Origin: Ophryocystis elektroscirrha
Lineage: Eukaryota > Apicomplexa > Conoidasida > Neogregarinorida > Ophryocystidae
Direction of reading: 5' to 3'
DNA: 17,343 nt
Assembly (NCBI GenBank): GCA_030141585.1
Contig: JAQIFP010000099.1
Location: 1-17,343 of the forward strand
Shown here: positions 1,515-17,343 of the stretch, piece by piece
Position numbering within the stretch: the stretch's first letter is position 1
How the letters are laid out: every line of letters begins with the position of its first letter
The notes under the pieces: generated by a model
Seen by the model: only the letters and a program-made list of their open reading frames with translations
Database searches by the model: none
Told to the model about the DNA's origin: nothing
Program-made: the position numbers and the translations under genes

Positions 1515-2852
1515 TATATAATTGTATATATACATACGTGAGTATATATATACGTATATGAATGTATATAAGGATATATAAATGTATTTATACATGTATG
1601 AATGCATATATATATATATATATGTAACCATATATATACATATGTGAGTATATATATACATATATCAGTGTATTTAAACATATATAAGTGTATTTATACA
1701 TATATGAGTGTATATAAACATGTATGAATGTATATTAACATATTTGAGTGTATATATACATATATGATAGTATTTATACATATATGAGTGTACATGTATA
1801 TATATATAAGTGTATTTATACATACATGAGTCTTTTTATACATACATGAGTGTATTTATATATATTTGAATTTATATATACATACATGAATGTATTTATG
1901 CATATATGAGTGTACAAATATATATAAATGTATATATATATATATAAGTGTATTTATACATACATGAGTTAATTTATACAAATGTGAATTTAATTATAAA
2001 AATGTGAGCTTATATATGTGATTTTATACATATTAACGTAAATGAATATATGCGTGAATTAATATATAAATTAATTTAATTATAGTATTATAAATAAGCT
2101 TATTACAGTTTGTTTCTTATCGTAACATAAGACTTTTTTGAAATTATTTTCGGCATCTTTAATCCGATTTAACTGAAATTGCAAGACGCCTATATGAAAT
2201 ATGGCGGAAACTAAATATTGGTCTGATTTTTCGGTTTGATTAGACAAGGTTTCACATAAATTAATGACTTGTTCAAATAGCCCTAAAAAGAAAAAAATCG
2301 TATTAGATATTGTAGATTACTTAATGCGGACAATTTCTGTCCCGTTATTTGACATAGAACTCCTTTATGGTAAAGAACATTAATATCATTAGGAAACTGA
2401 GGATATTTATATATTTAATAAACGTACAATTTTGAGAGACATATCATAGCACATATCGCTTTCACGGTACATTTGTATGTCAAATAAAGTAAGTCCCAAT
2501 TTATCCCATATTTCTGCATCCTTCAATGTAGCTTTATTAACATCGAACGTTTTAACCAGTCTTGTTACTGCATTGCTTATGCTCTAAATTATAATGTCGG
2601 TTATTTATATACAGCTAGCCAACACCTTATTTACATATATATGTGTATATAACATATTTAAATTAAACATATGCCAGAAAAGCTAATAAAATATTTATTA
2701 TACATACAAATATTATTTTTATAATAATAATAATAGTAATTAAATGTGCATTTATCAAGCATAATATATATACTTAATTATATATAATCGATTTTATCTA
2801 TTATAATATAATAATAATATATGAAAAATAAATAACATTACTTATTATACAT

Positions 2853-2900
<48 letters not shown>

Positions 2901-3234
2901 TAATTGAAGCTTACGGGTGTCTGCCAGCACTGAAATAAATTGAAAATGTTGAAGATGCTGTAGTTATCGGTAGTCTGTTCATAAAGATATTCATTTCTAT
3001 TAGATTCATTCAAATAATTGACATAATTGAAGGCTAATGCAGTTGGTTCAAGTTTATTTTCTTCTAATTGATCAGTTATAAGCTGATACTGCTCTAAAAT
3101 TAATAACTGGTGAGTTTCAAGATTGAATTGGAATATTATCACTTACGGTCTCTCTTAAGAAGGGGATTTAAAGTAGATGACAAAATAGACGATATTTGAT
3201 TGATGGAAACATTACACCACTGTTTTCCTTCCAT
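1061..3234 (-). CDS. TPR-repeat protein, seven exons
   Basis: Seven exons join in phase: 3234-3147, 3093-2915, 2583-2428, 2396-2321, 2282-2107, 1269-1196 and 1160-1061, giving about 282 residues. Introns are 53, 331, 31, 38, 837 and 35 nt. Residues 110-282 form about four tetratricopeptide repeats: about 112-145 (starting [10 protein letters not shown]), about 146-178 (LYHKGVLCQ), about 189-223 (FHIGVLQF) and about 226-258 ([10 protein letters not shown] then ALSIDPNN, a classic TPR helix-B end). The N-terminal 110 residues are helical and unassigned. TPR arrays are protein-binding scaffolds, and the sequence does not say which complex this one serves. It is divergent from the alcohol dehydrogenase gene. 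The repeat identity is secure; the family is unknown. Confidence 0.8.
1270..2106 (-). repeat. 837-nt intron filled by a degenerate ~20-bp minisatellite
   Basis: Within intron 5 of the TPR gene, roughly 1380-2050 is a head-to-tail array of imperfect units near GAGTGTATTTATACATATAT. Units vary at a few positions (AAGTG, GAATG, ATAAAC) and are broken by a pure TA run at about 1468-1512. The flanking donor (GTAATAAG) and acceptor (GTTTTAG) preserve reading phase, so the array is spliced out of the coding sequence. Open frames of Tyr/Ile/His across it are repeat translation, not genes. Confidence 0.8.
2856..2899. repeat. (AT)n microsatellite
   Basis: An essentially pure AT dinucleotide run of about 44 bp sits inside intron 2 of the TPR gene, close to its donor. 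Confidence 0.9.
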
Positions 3235-3793
3235 AATGAATAAAATTTTAACTACTACAGTGATGTAATAATCAATTGTATCATTTAAAAATTGAATTTT
3301 ACTGAAATATAAACAATTCAGACATAAATTTTAGTTTTTGCAAAAAAAGGATTTTTCTTGTAATTGTTTGCAAACTTTGATTACAATATTAGAAAAAAAA
3401 AAAAATTATATAATTAATGCTATATAACCTGTAAAATTGTTGTAAGAACATATTTGTTAGATAAGGAGAATGATGACTAGTAGTTGCTAAATAATTTTAA
3501 TATTTTGATTGGATTGATAATAAATAAAAAATATTAGCTAATCAGCTATTTGAGCATATATATGATTACATGCAGACTTAATAAATACTATAATATGTTA
3601 TCTATTCAAATTTGTTTGCACATATAAAAAAAATAGAAATAATATTATTGTAGTATAATAAAACGATAATTGTACTAGTAAGCTGCTTTTGCAGCAAAAA
3701 GGTATCTTGAATATAAATGTATATGCATGTATATAGCATAATTATTTGAGAGACACACAGCAGGATAGGGTCTAAACCATTTATCTGTTTAGT
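3235..3793. promoter_or_regulatory. divergent intergenic spacer, presumed bidirectional promoter
   Basis: About 560 bp separate the start codons of the TPR gene (minus) and the alcohol dehydrogenase (plus). The sequence is very AT-rich with A and T tracts. No defined promoter motif, tRNA or coding signal can be named. Promoter function is inferred only from gene orientation. Confidence 0.4.
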
Positions 3794-4846
3794 ATGAGAG
3801 CATATCAAGTTATTAAGTTTGGCCAGAAATTTGAGAAACGTGAAATCGAAAAGCCAAAACCTTCTGAACATGAAGTTTTAGCTCGTACAGTGGCATCTGG
3901 AGTATGCCATACAGATTTGCACGTCGCACACGGTGACTTGGGATTAGTGGATTTACCAATTACAGGAGGACACGAAGGTGTAGGAATAATAGAGGAAGTT
4001 GGATCGAAAGTAACGAAATTTAAAGTGGGAGACCGAATAGGTGTGCCATGGTTGGGTTTGACATGTTTGGATTGTGTACAATGTCATAACAGTTTATATA
4101 ATATTTGTCAAAATCAATATCAAACAGGCTTTAAACGGAACGGATCTTTTGCGGAATATTTTGTTGCAGACGAGCGATTTGCAGCAAAAATACCCGATTC
4201 ACTAGAAAGCACTGCAGCAGCTCCCATACTATGTGCTGGACTGACTTCATATCGAGCTCTTAAAATACTAAAATCAAATAAATCTATTGCAGATACGACC
4301 ACAAATGGAGGAAAGAAACGTATTGTTATTTCTGGAGCAGGAGGAGGTCTTGGGCATTTAGGCGTCCAATATGCAAAATTGATGGATTTGGAAGTTATTG
4401 CATTAGATGTATTATCTGAAGATAAATATAATCTATTAAAGAAGCTAGGTGTCGACCATGTTGTAAATATTAAAGATAAAAACTATTTGGAGCAATTAGA
4501 AGAAATTGAAAAAAAACACGGGACTATATCTGGTGCGGTTATATTTGCACCAGCACCAAATGCATATCAAGATGCTGTTAAATATGTATCACCTGGCGGT
4601 GTTATTGTTGCTGTTTCCTTATTAGGTCAACACGTAGAACTGGATACTAATGAGATTATCTTAAAAGATTTATCATTGAAAGGATCTATCGTAGGTAACC
4701 CAGAAGATTTACAGGAGGTTCTTAATCTATCAGCACAAGGCAAAATTCATGCCGAATGTAAAATCGAACCACACGAAAATCTACCAAAAATTATTGATGA
4801 TCTAGAACACGGAACGATACGTGGACGTGTTGTTTTAACTTTTTAA
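3794..4846 (+). CDS. zinc-dependent medium-chain alcohol dehydrogenase
   Basis: This 350-residue NAD(H)-dependent alcohol dehydrogenase interconverts alcohols and aldehydes, typically ethanol and acetaldehyde, in the cytosol. Length and order match the yeast ADH1/bacterial AdhP class. Catalytic zinc ligands are visible at C38 (GVCHTD), H60-E61 (GGHEGVG) and C147 (APILCAGLTSY). The structural-zinc cysteines are C91, C94, C97 and C105. The Rossmann loop GAGGGLGHLG lies at 181-190, followed by D205, which favours NAD over NADP. A short insertion at about 161-175 precedes the loop. The start matches the family N-terminus (MRAYQV). The gene is one uninterrupted exon, unlike the spliced genes on either side of this cluster. 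Its stop lies 73 bp from the convergent alveolin stop. No targeting peptide is seen. Confidence 0.96.
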   Translation: MRAYQVIKFGQKFEKREIEKPKPSEHEVLARTVASGVCHTDLHVAHGDLGLVDLPITGGHEGVGIIEEVGSKVTKFKVGDRIGVPWLGLTCLDCVQCHNSLYNICQNQYQTGFKRNGSFAEYFVADERFAAKIPDSLESTAAAPILCAGLTSYRALKILKSNKSIADTTTNGGKKRIVISGAGGGLGHLGVQYAKLMDLEVIALDVLSEDKYNLLKKLGVDHVVNIKDKNYLEQLEEIEKKHGTISGAVIFAPAPNAYQDAVKYVSPGGVIVAVSLLGQHVELDTNEIILKDLSLKGSIVGNPEDLQEVLNLSAQGKIHAECKIEPHENLPKIIDDLEHGTIRGRVVLTF

Positions 4847-4919: not shown

Positions 4920-6038
4920 TCAATTAATGGAGTAACGCCTAGGTGAGCAATTTAAAGTTGTTGTTGTCGTCATTTGTTGGTGTTTTTCTGTTGTAATAAC
5001 ATGTAATTTCCTTTCTGACCAAGCAGTTTGAACCGCTGTATCGAGATTCTTCAAAGATACATATTGATCAATATTATTTTCTCTTATTTCTTTAGCAATT
5101 GTTTCAAGTTCACATAAACTAACAGCTTCGGATGATGTACGTAATTGTTGCAATTGTATATTTTTAGCGTTATATGTAGATTTTACACTAGGTTGAACTA
5201 ATTCTTCGGCGATAGGTACTTCAATAAATCGGGGCACATATACAGGGAACTTTACTTTAATGACTTTTGGAACAAGTTTTGGTAGATGATAATCAAAGCA
5301 TAAAACAGCTTCAGTAGGTACAGGTATATTTCGTGGAACATTATATTGTTCTTCAACATTGACATATCTCGGTACTTCTTTATGTACAAATTGCGGTATA
5401 GGAACTTTTCTGATTTGAACTTCTTCTTGTATTTGAGGAACTTCAACTACTCTTTCTTGCTTACTTTCTCTATATTCAACTTCAGGAACTTCAATTGTTT
5501 TTTCTTGTACGTATATTTTAGGTAGCTCTATTACTCTTTCTACTTTTTCTGGTTTAAAAACTTCACGTATTTTTTCTTCATATATAACTTGAGGCACTTC
5601 AACAATTTTGTCAACATATACGTATTCAGGGACTTCTATGATTTTTTCTTGAATAACTGGTTTAGCTACTTCAATAATTCTTTGCCTTATCGTACGAACT
5701 TCATCTATAATTTCCTCTCTTTCAATTGTTTCCGGTACCACAATATATTTATGTACAGTTTCTTTATGTATAACTTTTTTTGGTGTATGCACTTCACGGT
5801 CAACAATGCGCTCGGAAATAATACAGTTACTATCTACAGATGCTGGTAATCCAGTACATGGCTGACAATGAGTACGGTTGGTGGCTGCTGCACTATGAGA
5901 CTCATATGTTAGGTTATCACAAATGAATTTTTTTTCTGACCCACTGTTGGATATTTCTTGTTCAACCGTTTTTTTCGAATTTTCCTTCATTGATACTATA
6001 CAATAGCGTGCCTGGTATGCATGCGATTCATGTTTCAT
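4920..6038 (-). CDS. alveolin (inner membrane complex protein)
   Basis: This 372-residue protein has the alveolin signature. About residues 75-285 consist of short Glu/Val/Pro-rich repeats of the form (K/R/E)-x-I-x-E-V-P, for example KIIEVPEYV, KIVEVPQ, VIELPKI, TIEVPEVEY and VVEVPQ, followed by IPVPTEAV and FIEVPIAEE. Alveolins build the filament network under the flattened alveolar sacs of apicomplexans, dinoflagellates and ciliates, shaping the cell and its daughters. N-terminal cysteines (about C40, C58, C61, C72) and a near C-terminal Cys at about 364 could be lipidated, as in known IMC proteins; this is inference. A TTTGTAG just upstream of the ATG could be an acceptor, so an extra 5' exon is possible. 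This gene is the main taxonomic clue. Confidence 0.93.
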   Translation of the reverse strand: MKHESHAYQARYCIVSMKENSKKTVEQEISNSGSEKKFICDNLTYESHSAAATNRTHCQPCTGLPASVDSNCIISERIVDREVHTPKKVIHKETVHKYIVVPETIEREEIIDEVRTIRQRIIEVAKPVIQEKIIEVPEYVYVDKIVEVPQVIYEEKIREVFKPEKVERVIELPKIYVQEKTIEVPEVEYRESKQERVVEVPQIQEEVQIRKVPIPQFVHKEVPRYVNVEEQYNVPRNIPVPTEAVLCFDYHLPKLVPKVIKVKFPVYVPRFIEVPIAEELVQPSVKSTYNAKNIQLQQLRTSSEAVSLCELETIAKEIRENNIDQYVSLKNLDTAVQTAWSERKLHVITTEKHQQMTTTTTLNCSPRRYSIN

Positions 6039-6624: not shown

Positions 6625-7179
6625 ATGCGTACGTATATCATAATCTTGCTACTATCAAATATTTTACTTATATGTAATGGCGGTAGAAATGAGCAAAGAA
6701 ATATGCCAACGTATTATTCAGCATACAACATAGAGGAAGATGTTTTTGAAGACGAAAAATTATGGGAACAATTTCCCGCGGAACAGACCAATTGCACAGA
6801 TATCGTGTACGAAACTATCGAAAGTTTGGGATACATTTTAAGACCAGAGTTGATAAATCCTTCTAATGAGACTATTATTAAAGTTCCCATACGATTTTGG
6901 TATATTCCGAATCGCTGTTATTTATTTGGAATGGTTCCTTTTTATGCGAAGGATACTATCGGAGATTTAGCATCCAGAGCGGCAAAACAATTCTTTAATT
7001 ACCGTCAAAGCGAAAATAATGCTAAGTTAGTTTTAGGAATAGTGCCCTTATACAATAATAAGTTAATGCGTTATTTTTTACCAAGTGTTCAAAATGGAGG
7101 TGTTTTGACTTTAAAATTAGAAATTCAACCAAAATACGATGTAGATTCCTATTCTCCGTACGGATATTTCAGCTCTTAA
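6625..7179 (+). CDS. secreted protein with C-terminal ubiquitin-like domain (tandem paralogue A)
   Basis: This 184-residue, single-exon protein starts with a clear signal peptide (about residues 1-19, hydrophobic IIILLLSNILLIC). A short acidic linker with CTDIVYETI follows. Residues about 84-167 read like a ubiquitin fold: a strand pair around KVPIRFWY and LFGMVPFY, a helix after DTI (GDLASRAAKQFF), a strand KLVLG corresponding to the LIFAG strand of ubiquitin, and a final NGGVLTLKLE strand corresponding to STLHLVLR. The tail is Tyr/Ser-rich and lacks a terminal Gly-Gly, so conjugation as a modifier is not supported. The next gene, 158 bp downstream on the same strand, ends in a matching domain with shared MRYF and NGG-x-L. 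The fold is inferred from pattern; the cellular role is unknown. Confidence 0.75.
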   Translation: MRTYIIILLLSNILLICNGGRNEQRNMPTYYSAYNIEEDVFEDEKLWEQFPAEQTNCTDIVYETIESLGYILRPELINPSNETIIKVPIRFWYIPNRCYLFGMVPFYAKDTIGDLASRAAKQFFNYRQSENNAKLVLGIVPLYNNKLMRYFLPSVQNGGVLTLKLEIQPKYDVDSYSPYGYFSS

Positions 7180-7337
7180 ACCCTTTGTCTTTATAAGTTA
7201 TATTTTCAACTTTTAATTTTTTTAACGTTTTTCTTAAGTTCGATTCATTAATTAAACTACCAATTGCAAATAATTAGTTTCAGTTTAATATTTTTTACAT
7301 AATTTTATTTTTTAATAAAATTTCAAGTTAAGTTATA

Positions 7338-8357
7338 ATGATACTATCCAATCTAATTATTTTAAAATTAATTTTAATAAATGGAGTGCTTAATGTTCTA
7401 GAACCTTGGTCTATAAAAAAAAATGCAGATGAACCGTACATAAATTACTCATCATCCCCACGAAAACAAGCAAAAGCTGTACTAATGTCAAATTCAATTG
7501 ATAATACACCAAATATTATGAATGGTATGAAATACACGTTAAAACAGTCTAAAAGAGCACAAAATCGAATACCTAAAATAGAAGAATTGATATCGGATAG
7601 TAGTTTGTTAGAAAGTAGTAGTGATACATCCATTAAAAGTATGGCAAATTGGATTCCAAAACTTAGTAAAAAACGAAATAAACTTAACAGTCAATATATA
7701 ATAGACAGTACGGCAAGTAATACAGGCCATGAAAACTTATATGATTATTCACAATTCAAACCTGTTACTGAGGTAGTGGGAAATCCGTTAGATCTTGAAG
7801 ATGCAGAGGAAGATATGATTTATCAATTCAATTTTGAAGAATATCAACCCGAGTATAATATGGGAGACATGATGGAATATGAAATAGATGATATATCTGA
7901 TAGTCTCTATGATAATCCAAATGTCCCACTTATTGAATTTGAAGAAATATCAGAATATGACGAAAATATTGATCAAAATGCTTTGTTACACAAAATTATC
8001 AAAGAAGACTATATTTATCAAGATAATTTATCACGCTATATGAAAGAGGTATCCCCTCCAACAAGACATCTACAAATGCCTTTTAAAAAAAATGAAGTTC
8101 TTCAATTACCCATAAAATATTATTCCCCTAAAGAAAAAGTACATCGTATAGTTTATGTCCCTTCCTATGACCATAATACTGTTCAAGATATAGCAGATTC
8201 TGCAGCTAAATTGAGTAGAGGCAATTATCTTCCAAAAGAAACACTACTATTCCTAAACAATGAACTATTGCCTTCAGCTAAGCAAATGAGGTATTTTTAT
8301 AATAATGTGCTCAATGGCGGGAGTTTACAAATTAGTTATTTATATGATAAATTATAA
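7338..8357 (+). CDS. secreted protein with C-terminal ubiquitin-like domain (tandem paralogue B)
   Basis: This 339-residue, single-exon protein has an N-terminal hydrophobic signal (about residues 1-20, MILSNLIILKLILING). A Ser/Asn/Lys-rich basic region (about 27-125) and a strongly acidic region (about 150-225, for example DLEDAEEDM and YEIDDISD) follow. The C-terminal domain (about 254-337) matches paralogue A: QLPIKYY, then VYVPSYD, NTVQDIADSAAKL, TLLFLNNELL, MRYF and NGGSLQISYLY. The order of strand, helix and LLFLNNELL strand resembles ubiquitin. It ends KL, with no Gly-Gly. No cysteine is present. The signal plus basic stretch resembles an apicoplast bipartite leader, but a secretory or organelle-lumen destination fits equally well. 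This gene and A probably arose by tandem duplication. Confidence 0.75.
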   Translation: MILSNLIILKLILINGVLNVLEPWSIKKNADEPYINYSSSPRKQAKAVLMSNSIDNTPNIMNGMKYTLKQSKRAQNRIPKIEELISDSSLLESSSDTSIKSMANWIPKLSKKRNKLNSQYIIDSTASNTGHENLYDYSQFKPVTEVVGNPLDLEDAEEDMIYQFNFEEYQPEYNMGDMMEYEIDDISDSLYDNPNVPLIEFEEISEYDENIDQNALLHKIIKEDYIYQDNLSRYMKEVSPPTRHLQMPFKKNEVLQLPIKYYSPKEKVHRIVYVPSYDHNTVQDIADSAAKLSRGNYLPKETLLFLNNELLPSAKQMRYFYNNVLNGGSLQISYLYDKL

Positions 8358-8490: not shown

Positions 8491-10615
8491 ATGAAGGACA
8501 ATTGGTGGTGTAAATCACGTTCAGCAATGGAAATAAAACAAGTCAATTTATCTGAAACGTATAAATAATAAGGATAACTTATTTGTAGAACTAAACGTTT
8601 GCCGTTTAGCTGCGAAACTCTCACCAAATATATGAAGTAATATAAATTTTTGTTATTTATCTTTTATGGAGTGGGGGAGTTCCTTCTGGCAAAATTATTG
8701 AATGTACAGGGGAACCTGGGGTGGGCAAAACGCAATTCTGCTTATCCCTTATAGCAGACGTAAATAAATTTTATTTGTAGTTACAAATCGTTAATTATTG
8801 CACGCTTATAGAAACTTGATAGATATCTAATTTATTAAAATAAAATAAATTTCAATATATTATATCCTTTGGATTATTATATTGCACTTAATTATTTACA
8901 TTTATTATATTAATGAAAAAAAAATTAATTATTGTCAAATATACTATAAATAATTAATTATCAGATATAAAATATAAATTATATATATATGCATAAGAAA
9001 TATAAAAGAAACCTATCAAAATATTAATTATTGATAATTCCATTATATAAATATGTTGTCAACGTTATTAATTGAATAGGTATTATTAAGCAACAGCGAA
9101 GCAGCAGTGCTGTATATGTCAGTTGAAAATCCTTTTCCAATATTAAGGTTGAATGAAATATTAAGTAATAGAGCAAATAATTATTGTTTTTTCCTTAGAT
9201 GCTAGATTAAAGTCTGCTAATGTGTAAATTGTAATGCTAACTTTTTTATTAAGCAGATTACTCAATGATTTATTGAAAAGACTAATGATTCAGAAAATAT
9301 CAAGTGTTCTTATATTTGAAGAATTGATAAAAAACTTTATATACAATAATTTTAAGGCCAGAAAGGTACTTTGAAATTAATATCATTGTCACTATGGATA
9401 TTAAAAAAAAAAAATTCTTATTATTGCTATATAAAGTATACGTGAAATTAAAAATAAGCATAATTTTATTCAAAATTATTTTTAAATTATCATAATTGTA
9501 TTACTAAATAAGTTTATATAATAATTTACACATTTTTTTGTAATTTATATAGTTGCGCTGATATTATTGACAGGGGGGTGTTAAACTGTTTTTGATCTTA
9601 TGATATTTATTTTTAATAAATTTATTTATTATATTAAAAAAAAGATATTAAATAGTACTTCTAGGTAATTGTATGTTGAATATATATTAACTTACAACTA
9701 GGTTACGTATGTACAATATACAAGACTGTACTAACGCTAGTCTGTACTATTTATATTTGCGAAAATAACAATCTTGAGAACTATTCCAAATATATAAGGA
9801 CTAATCAATACAATTATATAACTAATTAATATGCAAGTTCAGCCACAAGATATATATTATTGTATTTATAAATGGCTTATTTGCGAAAAATAAATATATA
9901 GTGGAAAAATTTCTGAATCATACGCAAGATATAGGTAGCGCTTATTGTAATTGACTCAATAGCTGGATTGTTTCGTATATTATCTAATTTGTAATTTTTT
10001 CAATTTATTTAAATTATTCTGCTTAGAGATCATTCAAGTATAAGAGGACGTGCCGTTCAAATGTTACGTTATTCCAATATACTTAAACGCTTAGCAACTG
10101 AACTAGAATGTCCTATTATTGTAACAAACCAAGTAACGGCTACTCAAATTCCTTCCAAAAAGTTTAAAATGTCTAATTTGCCTTCCCTTGGACTAGGATG
10201 GGATTCATGTATTAATACACGATACGTTATAACTAAAGCTAAATCGTCCTCCAATAAACGTGCACAGCGTTTTATTCAAGTTAATTATGATATTAATGAT
10301 TATACTCCCAAGTATGTATTTTAAATATATAAATTAATTTTTATATGTGCATAATTATATATTCACAAATATATATTATATATATACGAATATATATTGA
10401 TTAATATAAATTTAAATATTAATTTATATTGTAAATGTAGATAATTTACATATGTTGCAATAAAAGAAAAGTATAAAAAATAGAAATAATGCAATTAATC
10501 TATAAATATATAATTTATAATAAGGATAGTATAAACCATGTTAATGTATGGGTTTTTTCTTAGTGGAATTCCAATTGAAATATCTAAAACTGGAGTTTCA
10601 ATATCAAACAATTAG
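8491..10615 (+). CDS. XRCC3: XRCC3-like RAD51 paralogue, nine exons
   Basis: Nine exons join in phase: 8491-8558, 8589-8636, 8672-8759, 9080-9164, 9199-9223, 9257-9365, 9935-9990, 10027-10311 and 10564-10615, giving about 271 residues. Introns are 30, 35, 320, 34, 33, 569, 36 and 252 nt. RecA-fold motifs follow in order: KRLPFSCETL before the core, Walker A GEPGVGKT (about 52-59), LYMSVENPFP in place of the RAD51 YIDTEGTFRP motif, Walker B LIVIDSIAGLFR (about 144-155), IIVTNQV (about 190-196), PSLGLGWDSCINTR, and a C-terminal strand before GVSISNN. The ENPFP and SLGLxW motifs favour XRCC3 over RAD51C or RAD51B. The family assists RAD51 filaments in homologous recombination. The usual N-terminal helix-hairpin-helix part is absent, and only 133 bp separate this ATG from the preceding gene. 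Confidence 0.88.
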
Positions 10616-14052: not shown

Positions 14053-15091
14053 ATATAGATTTGGCTAATTATTGTGCATAGTTTATATATGTAACAAATA
14101 GATAAAGAATAAATAATTATATAGTCTTTTTAAAAATTACTTGATTTAGTGACATTCTTTTCTTTTTCGATACTGCACTTGTCAGATGCAGGAGAAACAT
14201 TTTTAGATCTATAAGTTGGAGATTCGGTTTGTTTTTTAACAGGTGAGTTATTTTGGGATGTTGAAGCACACCGTTTACTGGACTTTACAGGTGAACATTG
14301 TCTTGAAGAAACAGAATGAGGATGTCTTCTACTTCTTCTTCCACGACCAATGTCTTCAACAGAATACTTTCGAGGCATTTCGATGGAAGATGAGCGACGG
14401 TATTCTTTTCTGCGTTCACGGTAATAGCGTGGAGGAGAGCGATATCGTTCCCCTGTACTACGGTACATAGAACGATTGTCTTCATCTTCGTAATGGTAAT
14501 ATGGACTAGAGTTACTACGACGAGATCCCCTTCTTCTTGGACCATAAGAGCGTGAACGAGAGCGTCTATATATAGGAGGACTTCTATAAGATCGTCTACG
14601 GTCATTTGAATAAGATCTACGGTAACGTGCTCTTTCTTTATGACGCATAGTTTCTGGCGACTTTCGACCTTGTTGTGCCACAGTAACAGAAACATCTGAA
14701 CCATCTATTACTATGTTTCGGCTTGTTGCTTGTAAAGCAGCTTCTGCGTCTTCATCTCGGGCAAATTCAACAAATCCAAAACCACGTGGAAGTTTTGTAT
14801 AATAATCAAGAGGTAGATACACATCCTTGACTTCACCTAAAACAATCCCCAAAATTATATGGAAAACAGCATACGCTAATAAGACTAATTTTTCGGATAA
14901 TTGCACTGACTTTAAGCCATTCAACAAAAAATCACATTTTATATTAATTTAATATATATAAATTATGTTTGCAATCAAAATACAAACAATACTACTAAAA
15001 TTAAGTAAATAGTATTACCAAATCTATCAAAATATTTACGAATTCTTTCAGGAGATGTAGTGTAACGTAAATTACGTACGATTAAAGACAT
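13785..15091 (-). CDS. SR splicing factor, SC35-like, three exons
   Basis: Exons: 15091-15019, 14836-14141 and 13843-13785, about 275 residues. Introns are 182 and 297 nt. Residues 1-80 are an RRM: RNP2 LIVRNL (about 3-8), then VKDVYLPLDYYT, and RNP1 RGFGFVEF (about 42-49). The linker GRKSPETMRHKERAR resembles that of the plant SCL and animal SRSF10-type factors. The remainder is Arg/Ser-rich (RRSYSNDRRRSYRS, RRSRSRSYGPRRRG and similar), the phosphorylatable domain that recruits spliceosome parts in the nucleus. Reading straight through exon 2 would end at TAA 14130. Splicing at GTAATT (14140) to TTTCAG (13844) instead adds a tail whose junction reads SRSRSAS, fitting the RS domain. The true start is the ATG at 15091, upstream of the open frame. 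Confidence 0.9.
14017..14049. repeat. (AT)n microsatellite in SR gene intron 2
   Basis: A pure AT dinucleotide run of about 33 bp lies inside the 297-nt second intron of the SR protein gene. Confidence 0.85.
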
Positions 15092-16086
15092 AGTCTTTCT
15101 CTCTCTCATGTCTTCAATTACTTTTTATAATTGACCTGCAATTATTAGGAGATCCACCGATAATTAAAAAAAAAAATCTTAACGTAATAATAAATATTAC
15201 AACGCTAAGTCTTAAGTTTATTTATTTAATTTTTACATTAAATTATCATAGTTTTACAACATTGTTTTAGTAAAGAGTAATTTCTAATAATATGCTTTGG
15301 TAAATAAGTCAAATTAAAATTATTTTTGTTGATTTCAAATAAAACTTAAAAATTTTATTGTAGTGATCGTTTTATAAGTTGTAAGTCATTTTTGTGAGTA
15401 CAGCTTAACATAAGATTAATTAGAAATATAACAAATTATTATCAATTAAATTTAAATATGTCAGGCAGATTTAAAATTATAAAAATAATTTATGCGTAAT
15501 TATAACAAATTTGATAATTAATTTATCAAATAAGTATTTATTAAAAAAAAAAATTTGTTAAATAAAAATTGTCACGAAAACATTGATTTTAATTGCATGA
15601 TATATTGAAGAGTTCTTTTAATTTAAAATATTTTTTTATATATTTAATAAAAATTTAAATCTTGTAAACTCAATTGTTTCGCTTATTGTCCACTATTAAA
15701 TTATTTCTGAATATAAACACAAGAATAATAAATATACATTTTTAACAGCATAATAAAAAATAAAAAAAAAATACAAAAATTAGTTAAGAATAATAATTAT
15801 TACTGTAAATAAGTAATTACAATTTTTGTGCTCATATCATATTGTAAGATTGCAGCTCCCAAACTAATTAATTAATTGGTTCATTTATGGAAGCATAATT
15901 ATTACTATCTGCGTACGTTTTCGTATTTTAGGGTGTAATTATTTGAGTCCATTGATATACGCATGAGTATGTAATTTTTTCCTATTAATATAAATTCAAA
16001 TGTATAAGAATTCCATGATATTTAAGATAGGTCAATTCGCACTGTTGCTAGTGTAGATTAATTTCTGTAACTAAATAAACAATTAG
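15092..16086. promoter_or_regulatory. long AT-rich divergent spacer
   Basis: About 1 kb of very AT-rich sequence lies upstream of the SR gene start. It has many A and T tracts, no sustained open frame and no tRNA or rRNA signature. It is presumed to include the SR promoter; nothing more specific can be read. Confidence 0.4.
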
Positions 16087-16454: not shown

Positions 16455-16760
16455 CGAATTTATTACTCCCGCTCCTAAAAAACATAAAAATTAGTGTAAT
16501 CATTCAAAATTTTGTTAAGATATGAAACATCATAAGTATAATAGTAAATTTGGCATAATGTATAGCAAAATGCTTCAGACAACAACATATTACACAAATA
16601 TGAAACTAAAAAAAACCTTCGAAGCAGTCATATTTTAGAGCGTCTATAATAGTATTAGAACGATACTTTAGGGTATTTTTGCATGTTTTTGGTGCACAAC
16701 AGGCACGAATATTGTTTATCAGCAGAGTTTGATAAATCTGTTTGCCAGAAACGTGGAAAA

Positions 16761-16899
16761 ATGCGTGAAATTGTATGTTTGCATTTCGGACAAGCTGGTG
16801 TTCAAAGTGGAAGTTCGTGCTGGGAGTTATTTTGCTTAGAGCATGGAATTAATCCCGACGGAACAATGAAAGACCCTAAAGCCATTCAAAAATCTCAAC
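16761..16899 (+). CDS. divergent alpha-tubulin, first exon (partial)
   Basis: This is the first 46 codons of an alpha-tubulin, the GTP-binding subunit that pairs with beta-tubulin in microtubules. MREI at the start, GQAGVQ (residues 10-15, nucleotide-site loop), [11 protein letters not shown] (20-30) and PDG (32-34) identify it. The exon ends in codon 47 at a strong donor GTAAGT (16900), and the rest lies beyond the window. It is unusually divergent: [13 protein letters not shown] replaces the near-invariant (I/V)GQAG(I/V)Q(V/I)GNACW, with Ser at 16, 18 and 19. Lys falls at position 40, the acetylation site, but the residues around it ([10 protein letters not shown]) differ from the usual SDKTIGGGD. 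An in-frame ATG at 16683 is ignored because the family begins MRE. It could be a specialised isotype. Confidence 0.9.
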
Positions 16900-17190
16900 G
16901 TAAGTTTCACAAAAAAGATAAGTCATGTAAATGTTGTCAACTTATTTTTAATTTATAATTTATCATAGAATACTATATATAGCTATATATTACTATTTTT
17001 CCATGCATGTTAAGGTACATGATAGTAAAGTTTACCGATAAAATTTTTTAGTTATATGAAATACTTTTAGCTTTGACTTTAATCGTTATAGTTGATATAT
17101 ACTACAGCTAAACTTAAAATAAAAATACATATAAATTATCTATAAGTACTGAAAAAAGGAAATCATGCTACTACTGTAATATGCAAAGTT
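16900..17190 (+). other. 5' part of alpha-tubulin intron 1
   Basis: The sequence after the GTAAGT donor at 16900 is AT-rich and carries no tubulin-like frame. It is read as intron. The next tubulin residues should follow downstream of the window. Confidence 0.6.
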
Positions 17191-17343
17191 AAATATATAA
17201 ATATATATATAAATATATATATAAATATATATATAAATATATATACAAATATATATATATATATATAAATATATATATAAATATATATACAAATATATAT
17301 ATATATATAAATATATATATAAATATATATATAAATATATATA
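17191..17343. repeat. 12-bp AT tandem repeat reaching the window end
   Basis: Units of AAATATATATAT repeat head to tail, with interspersed ACAAATATAT variants that recur about every 50 bp, suggesting a second-order period. It lies in the presumed first intron of the alpha-tubulin gene. Confidence 0.85.

Follow-up and report, generated by a model that had tools for sequence, protein, structure and literature searches.

Two adjacent, presumably secreted proteins of Ophryocystis elektroscirrha with a common C-terminal domain, possibly ubiquitin-like, on unrelated N-terminal parts

Lineage-restricted families of secreted paralogues occur in apicomplexans. One described apicomplexan protein, PUBL of Toxoplasma gondii, was discovered by a search for a putative signal peptide plus a ubiquitin-like domain and is described as ubiquitin-derived (PMC5487736); it is reported to require its C-terminal Gly-Gly and to be tied to protein import into the apicoplast (PMC5487736; PMC7600729). 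PUBL itself is described as having no recognised N-terminal signal peptide, and a hydrophobic stretch (residues 52–74) may act as a recessed one (PMC5487736). Cryptosporidium is reported to be without PUBL, which is explained there by the absence of the organelle (PMC5487736; PMC7600729), and most eugregarine superfamilies are reported to be apparently without plastids (PMC6733595). For Ophryocystis elektroscirrha, a genome of 8.6 Mb with 27.18% GC has been reported (PMC10210345). Here, one whole contig of this species (JAQIFP010000099.1, 17,343 nt, referred to as the window; assembly of 8,008,172 bases in 118 contigs) was analysed for two neighbouring genes, A and B, which an earlier reading of the letters (the original prediction) had taken to encode secreted proteins ending in a cryptic ubiquitin-like domain. 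The analysis established two open frames that carry a shared C-terminal domain on unrelated carriers and, as far as searched, no further copy in the genome. The genes and the spacer between them are located as follows:

6625..7179, forward strand: gene A, 184 amino acids, single open frame, presumed secreted
7180..7337, no strand: spacer between A and B, 158 bases, GC fraction 0.15–0.19 across three phases
7338..8357, forward strand: gene B, 339 amino acids, single open frame, presumed secreted

Both frames are closed shortly upstream of the start codon, with three codons between the in-frame stop and the ATG of A (stop-to-stop frame from 6616) and two in the case of B (from 7332). Given the base composition of the local intergenic DNA, about 0.003 open reading frames of at least 184 amino acids would be expected by chance genome-wide. 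Codon log-odds, trained on the neighbouring alcohol dehydrogenase and alveolin genes, were positive in the named frame (A +15.8, B +33.5) and negative in the other five frames for each gene. Nearly the whole positive total came from residues 21–80 of A (+16.4) and residues 21–245 of B (+32.5). The single-exon structure of A and B is read from the open frames and is thus a prediction.

The common domain of about 83 residues lies at the C-terminus of both proteins:

6874..7125, forward strand: C-terminal shared domain of A, residues 84–167 (blastp, shuffle test, structure model)
8097..8348, forward strand: C-terminal shared domain of B, residues 254–337 (blastp, shuffle test)

Residues 84–163 of A were aligned with residues 254–332 of B by blastp with 27 of 81 positions identical (33%, E-value 2e-8). 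The local A–B alignment score of 91 compares with a mean of 26.2 (standard deviation 5.0, maximum 52) in 5000 shuffles, i.e., z 13. A and B are hence two adjacent homologous genes, as in secreted tandem paralogues. The proteins end in YGYFSS (A) and YDKL (B), without a Gly-Gly end in either, while NGG lies internally, ahead of what is presumed to be the final strand. When B, the A domain, and the B domain served as queries in six-frame searches of the own genome (whole A was not among them), just the A and B copies were recovered beyond one weak row. This row (contig C70, 1468–1602; E-value 0.079 over 45 residues) was inspected at the DNA level and set aside as chance. The exact pattern YFx5NGG was found at four places in the genome, namely A, B, a place within a frame of 35 codons, and a place interrupted by two stops, and the latter two were rejected as further copies; the reversed pattern, used as a control, occurred at three places.

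Upstream of the domain, the two proteins consist of the following parts:

6625..6681, forward strand: hydrophobic N-terminal leader of A, about residues 1–19, presumed signal peptide (hydropathy peak 3.0, windows covering residues 5–16)
6685..6864, forward strand: short acidic segment of A, residues 21–80 (13 acidic, 4 basic)
7338..7391, forward strand: hydrophobic N-terminal leader of B, about residues 1–18, presumed signal peptide or signal anchor (hydropathy peak 2.3)
7398..8072, forward strand: long linker of B, residues 21–245, basic (21–135) then strongly acidic (136–240), coding score positive in the named frame alone

The hydropathy maximum was at the N-terminus in both proteins, and the sole other window above 1.6 was at residue 133 of A (1.7). 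Both leaders are most naturally read as signal peptides, and that of B could be a signal anchor; A and B are thus probably secreted. The linker of B contains 11 acidic and 17 basic residues in its first part (21–135) and 29 acidic and 5 basic residues in its second (136–240). No similarity between the N-terminal parts of A and B was detected, as 88% of 2000 shuffles reached an equal score. The original prediction of two adjacent single-exon genes at these positions, with a signal peptide at the start of each protein and a common C-terminal domain lacking Gly-Gly, was thereby borne out, the signal peptides as a prediction from hydropathy; so was its view of one domain on two strongly different carriers, short and acidic in A and long, basic, then acidic in B.

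The fold of the domain was more difficult to judge. The original prediction of a ubiquitin-like domain held by eye in the order of elements, i.e., two strands, a helix after T-[IV]-x-D, an LVLG or LLFLNNELL strand, and a last strand after NGG; sequence tests against ubiquitins stayed at chance, and the fold is neither shown nor ruled out. For the structure prediction that had been proposed as a check, residues 79–168 of A were modelled with AlphaFold2, which returned strand, strand, and helix (7–15, 19–28, and 34–45 in model numbering), with a block predicted local distance difference test (pLDDT) of 57–71 over residues 11–40 and a mean pLDDT of 51.9. No significant match of A or B to the ubiquitin-like family was obtained by hmmscan, a genome search with PF00240, hhalign, or pairwise alignment, tests that diverged members can fail. 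Of the 13 places with PF00240 in the own genome, 4 were used for the hhalign and pairwise comparisons, which were at chance level. When the B domain was globally aligned with ubiquitin, TLLFLNNEL fell opposite RLIFAGKQL, at a chance-level score (p 0.23). Elsewhere in the genome, six ubiquitin units are arrayed in one 472-codon frame (contig C88, 121748–123103), and PF00240 exceeded its cut-off at five more places and fell under it at two.

The element order, the strand–strand–helix model of A, and the pairing of TLLFLNNEL with RLIFAGKQL in spite of its chance-level score would fit a true but highly diverged ubiquitin-like beta-grasp member, acting as a non-conjugated secreted binding module, and we hold this reading tentatively, at somewhat less than an even chance. 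The domain could also be an unrelated alpha/beta or small new fold in an ordinary secreted or surface pair, its resemblance to ubiquitin being coincidental, to which we give an even chance. Every ubiquitin sequence test made on A and B was at chance, which points to such a fold, as do the PDB sequence matches, which were few and weak (E-values no better than 0.67) and involved unrelated proteins, with one search empty. The order of elements and the A model speak against it, and a missing match is weak evidence for orphans known from two sequences. The PDB matches themselves (AlbE homolog, SIR4, transcriptional regulator, and NrdI; E-values 0.67–1.7) were discounted.

A further explanation, that A and B are relatives of PUBL acting in plastid protein import, would account for a leader combined with a C-terminal domain roughly as long as ubiquitin, and PUBL itself emerged from a search for a ubiquitin-like domain joined to a putative signal peptide (PMC5487736). 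A and B are without the C-terminal Gly-Gly that PUBL is reported to require, and their similarity to ubiquitin is undetectable, whereas a ubiquitin origin is described for PUBL (PMC5487736). Additionally, GcpE/IspG, LytB/IspH, and KAS III, i.e., three of three plastid-pathway families, were unmatched in the genome at an E-value of 0.001; in one of these searches, a candidate was scored and did not pass. As this search was performed exon by exon with prokaryotes as controls on an assembly of uncertain completeness, plastid absence is argued for, not proven. The organism is probably without a plastid, and the missing families would fit the apparent lack of plastids reported for most eugregarine superfamilies if it belongs near them. 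Given the missing Gly-Gly end, the lack of ubiquitin similarity, and the three unmatched families, membership of A and B in PUBL was rejected, its probability being very small. The apicoplast link raised in the original prediction is likewise unlikely, considering the unmatched families and the gregarine proteins that are the best named relatives of the neighbouring alveolin (see below). Overall, the interpretation given in the original prediction is supported in part.

Relatives of A and B were searched for outside the genome. In a protein-set search that depends on shared 5-residue words, none of the 73 candidates for A and none of the 14 for residues 240–339 of B reached an E-value of 10 or better. 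Profile scans confirmed no relative in 27 stretches of viral contigs and none in 64 stretches of prokaryote contigs, although an apicomplexan gene would hardly be looked for in such sequences. With Pfam, no family was accepted for either protein or domain; the only row (DUF2326 on residues 79–164 of B; E-value 0.015, 15.5 bits, cut-off 28.7) was discounted. As a control, the neighbouring alveolin retrieved 71 proteins at an E-value of 0.001 from the same protein set, the best being an unnamed protein with 49% identity. Its best named relatives came from Gregarina, Porospora, Lankesteria, Blabericola, Trichotokara, and Selendium, which we take to be gregarines, with Cystoisospora, Plasmodium, and others lower. 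Hence, gregarines are represented in the protein set, and an identity of just 49% implies that no close relative is. Because of this, and of the word requirement, A and B are orphans at the sensitivity reached. Among the papers listed on ubiquitin-like, beta-grasp, apicoplast, and gregarine secreted proteins, none describes a pair of this kind in its title or abstract opening, which does not prove that no such paper exists.

The explanation favoured here, held at about even confidence, takes A and B to be tandem paralogues from a secreted family that probably evolves fast, in a gregarine-like apicomplexan, with a C-terminal non-covalent binding module on unrelated carriers. The leaders would, judged by composition, send both proteins into the endoplasmic reticulum and the secretory pathway. 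The domain may form a compact alpha/beta module, possibly a beta-grasp, that binds a partner non-covalently, and the charged N-terminal parts may act as flexible carriers setting localisation or valency. As both proteins lack a Gly-Gly end, ubiquitin-type conjugation would not be expected. The two domain copies probably arose by duplication in place and then acquired, or retained, different N-terminal parts. We infer the non-covalent binding role as the most economical reading. This explanation covers either fold, the beta-grasp and the unrelated fold being its two versions. We consider rather doubtful the more specific version that the secreted family is restricted to gregarines and that its ubiquitin-like beta-grasp domain, freed from conjugation and plastid, serves on changing carriers as a binding module outside the cell or in a vacuole.

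Several points weigh against the favoured explanation. The codon score of the remainder of A and B, including the shared domain, is about zero in frame; as codon usage leaves the domain unmarked, the case for a real domain is made by the open frames and the A–B homology. Secretion is an unproven prediction from hydropathy alone, and the binding role is pure inference. The lineage restriction may be merely a limit of the search, considering the lack of a close relative in the set and the need for 5-residue words.

The window has a GC fraction of 0.20–0.34 per kb and contains, besides A and B, the following features:

about 2080–3240, reverse strand: TPR-like gene, weak rows
3794–4846, forward strand: zinc-type alcohol dehydrogenase, 350 amino acids, single open frame (Pfam ADH_N, E-value 3.1e-28)
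4920–6038, reverse strand: alveolin, single open frame (IMCp, Pfam E-value 4.8e-12)
about 8649–10324, forward strand: RecA/Rad51-like ATPase gene in exon-like pieces (best Pfam rows E-value 1e-4 and 0.005, below curated cut-offs; none for the middle piece)
14130–15124, reverse strand: RRM/RS gene, splicing-factor-like, arginine-serine-rich (RRM across two frames, E-values 6e-9 and 0.008)
16659–16958, forward strand: divergent tubulin-like first exon (Pfam Tubulin, E-value 2.4e-7, 31.6 bits, cut-off 33; alpha-like by eye)

The alcohol dehydrogenase sits in a kilobase that is comparatively rich in GC, and the RecA/Rad51-like pieces lie directly downstream of B. The split of the RRM over two frames suggests an intron in the 14130–15124 gene. 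Pfam assigned no family to 2 of 10 pieces of the window, and no neighbour hints at a function of A or B. A long simple repeat of the TATAAA type (17190–17343) forms the end of the contig and is perhaps why the assembly stops there.

If the beta-grasp fold is true, an apicomplexan that is probably without a plastid would have a ubiquitin-like module in its secretory pathway, and the PUBL route would therefore not be the sole one. If it is not confirmed, A and B are another small and probably secreted orphan pair from a sparsely sampled parasite group, mainly useful as a structure-prediction target once close relatives have been sequenced.

Compared with known systems, the A/B domain resembles the ubiquitin family PF00240 in length and possibly in strand/helix order and differs from it in giving no significant match in any of the four kinds of test. 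Conjugated ubiquitin-like modifiers carry a Gly or Gly-Gly at the domain end, which A and B do not. With PUBL, as described, they share an N-terminal extension that leads to the secretory route, as well as a C-terminal domain close to ubiquitin in size; PUBL is recognisably ubiquitin-derived, has an essential Gly-Gly end, and acts in the apicoplast, whereas A and B begin directly with their leader, show no detectable similarity to ubiquitin, lack such an end, and come from a genome unmatched for three plastid-pathway families. Unlike the lineage-restricted secreted paralogue families of apicomplexans, A and B were found in two copies only and are known here from sequence alone; like them, they combine a leader, little sequence conservation, a tandem arrangement, and charged low-complexity parts.
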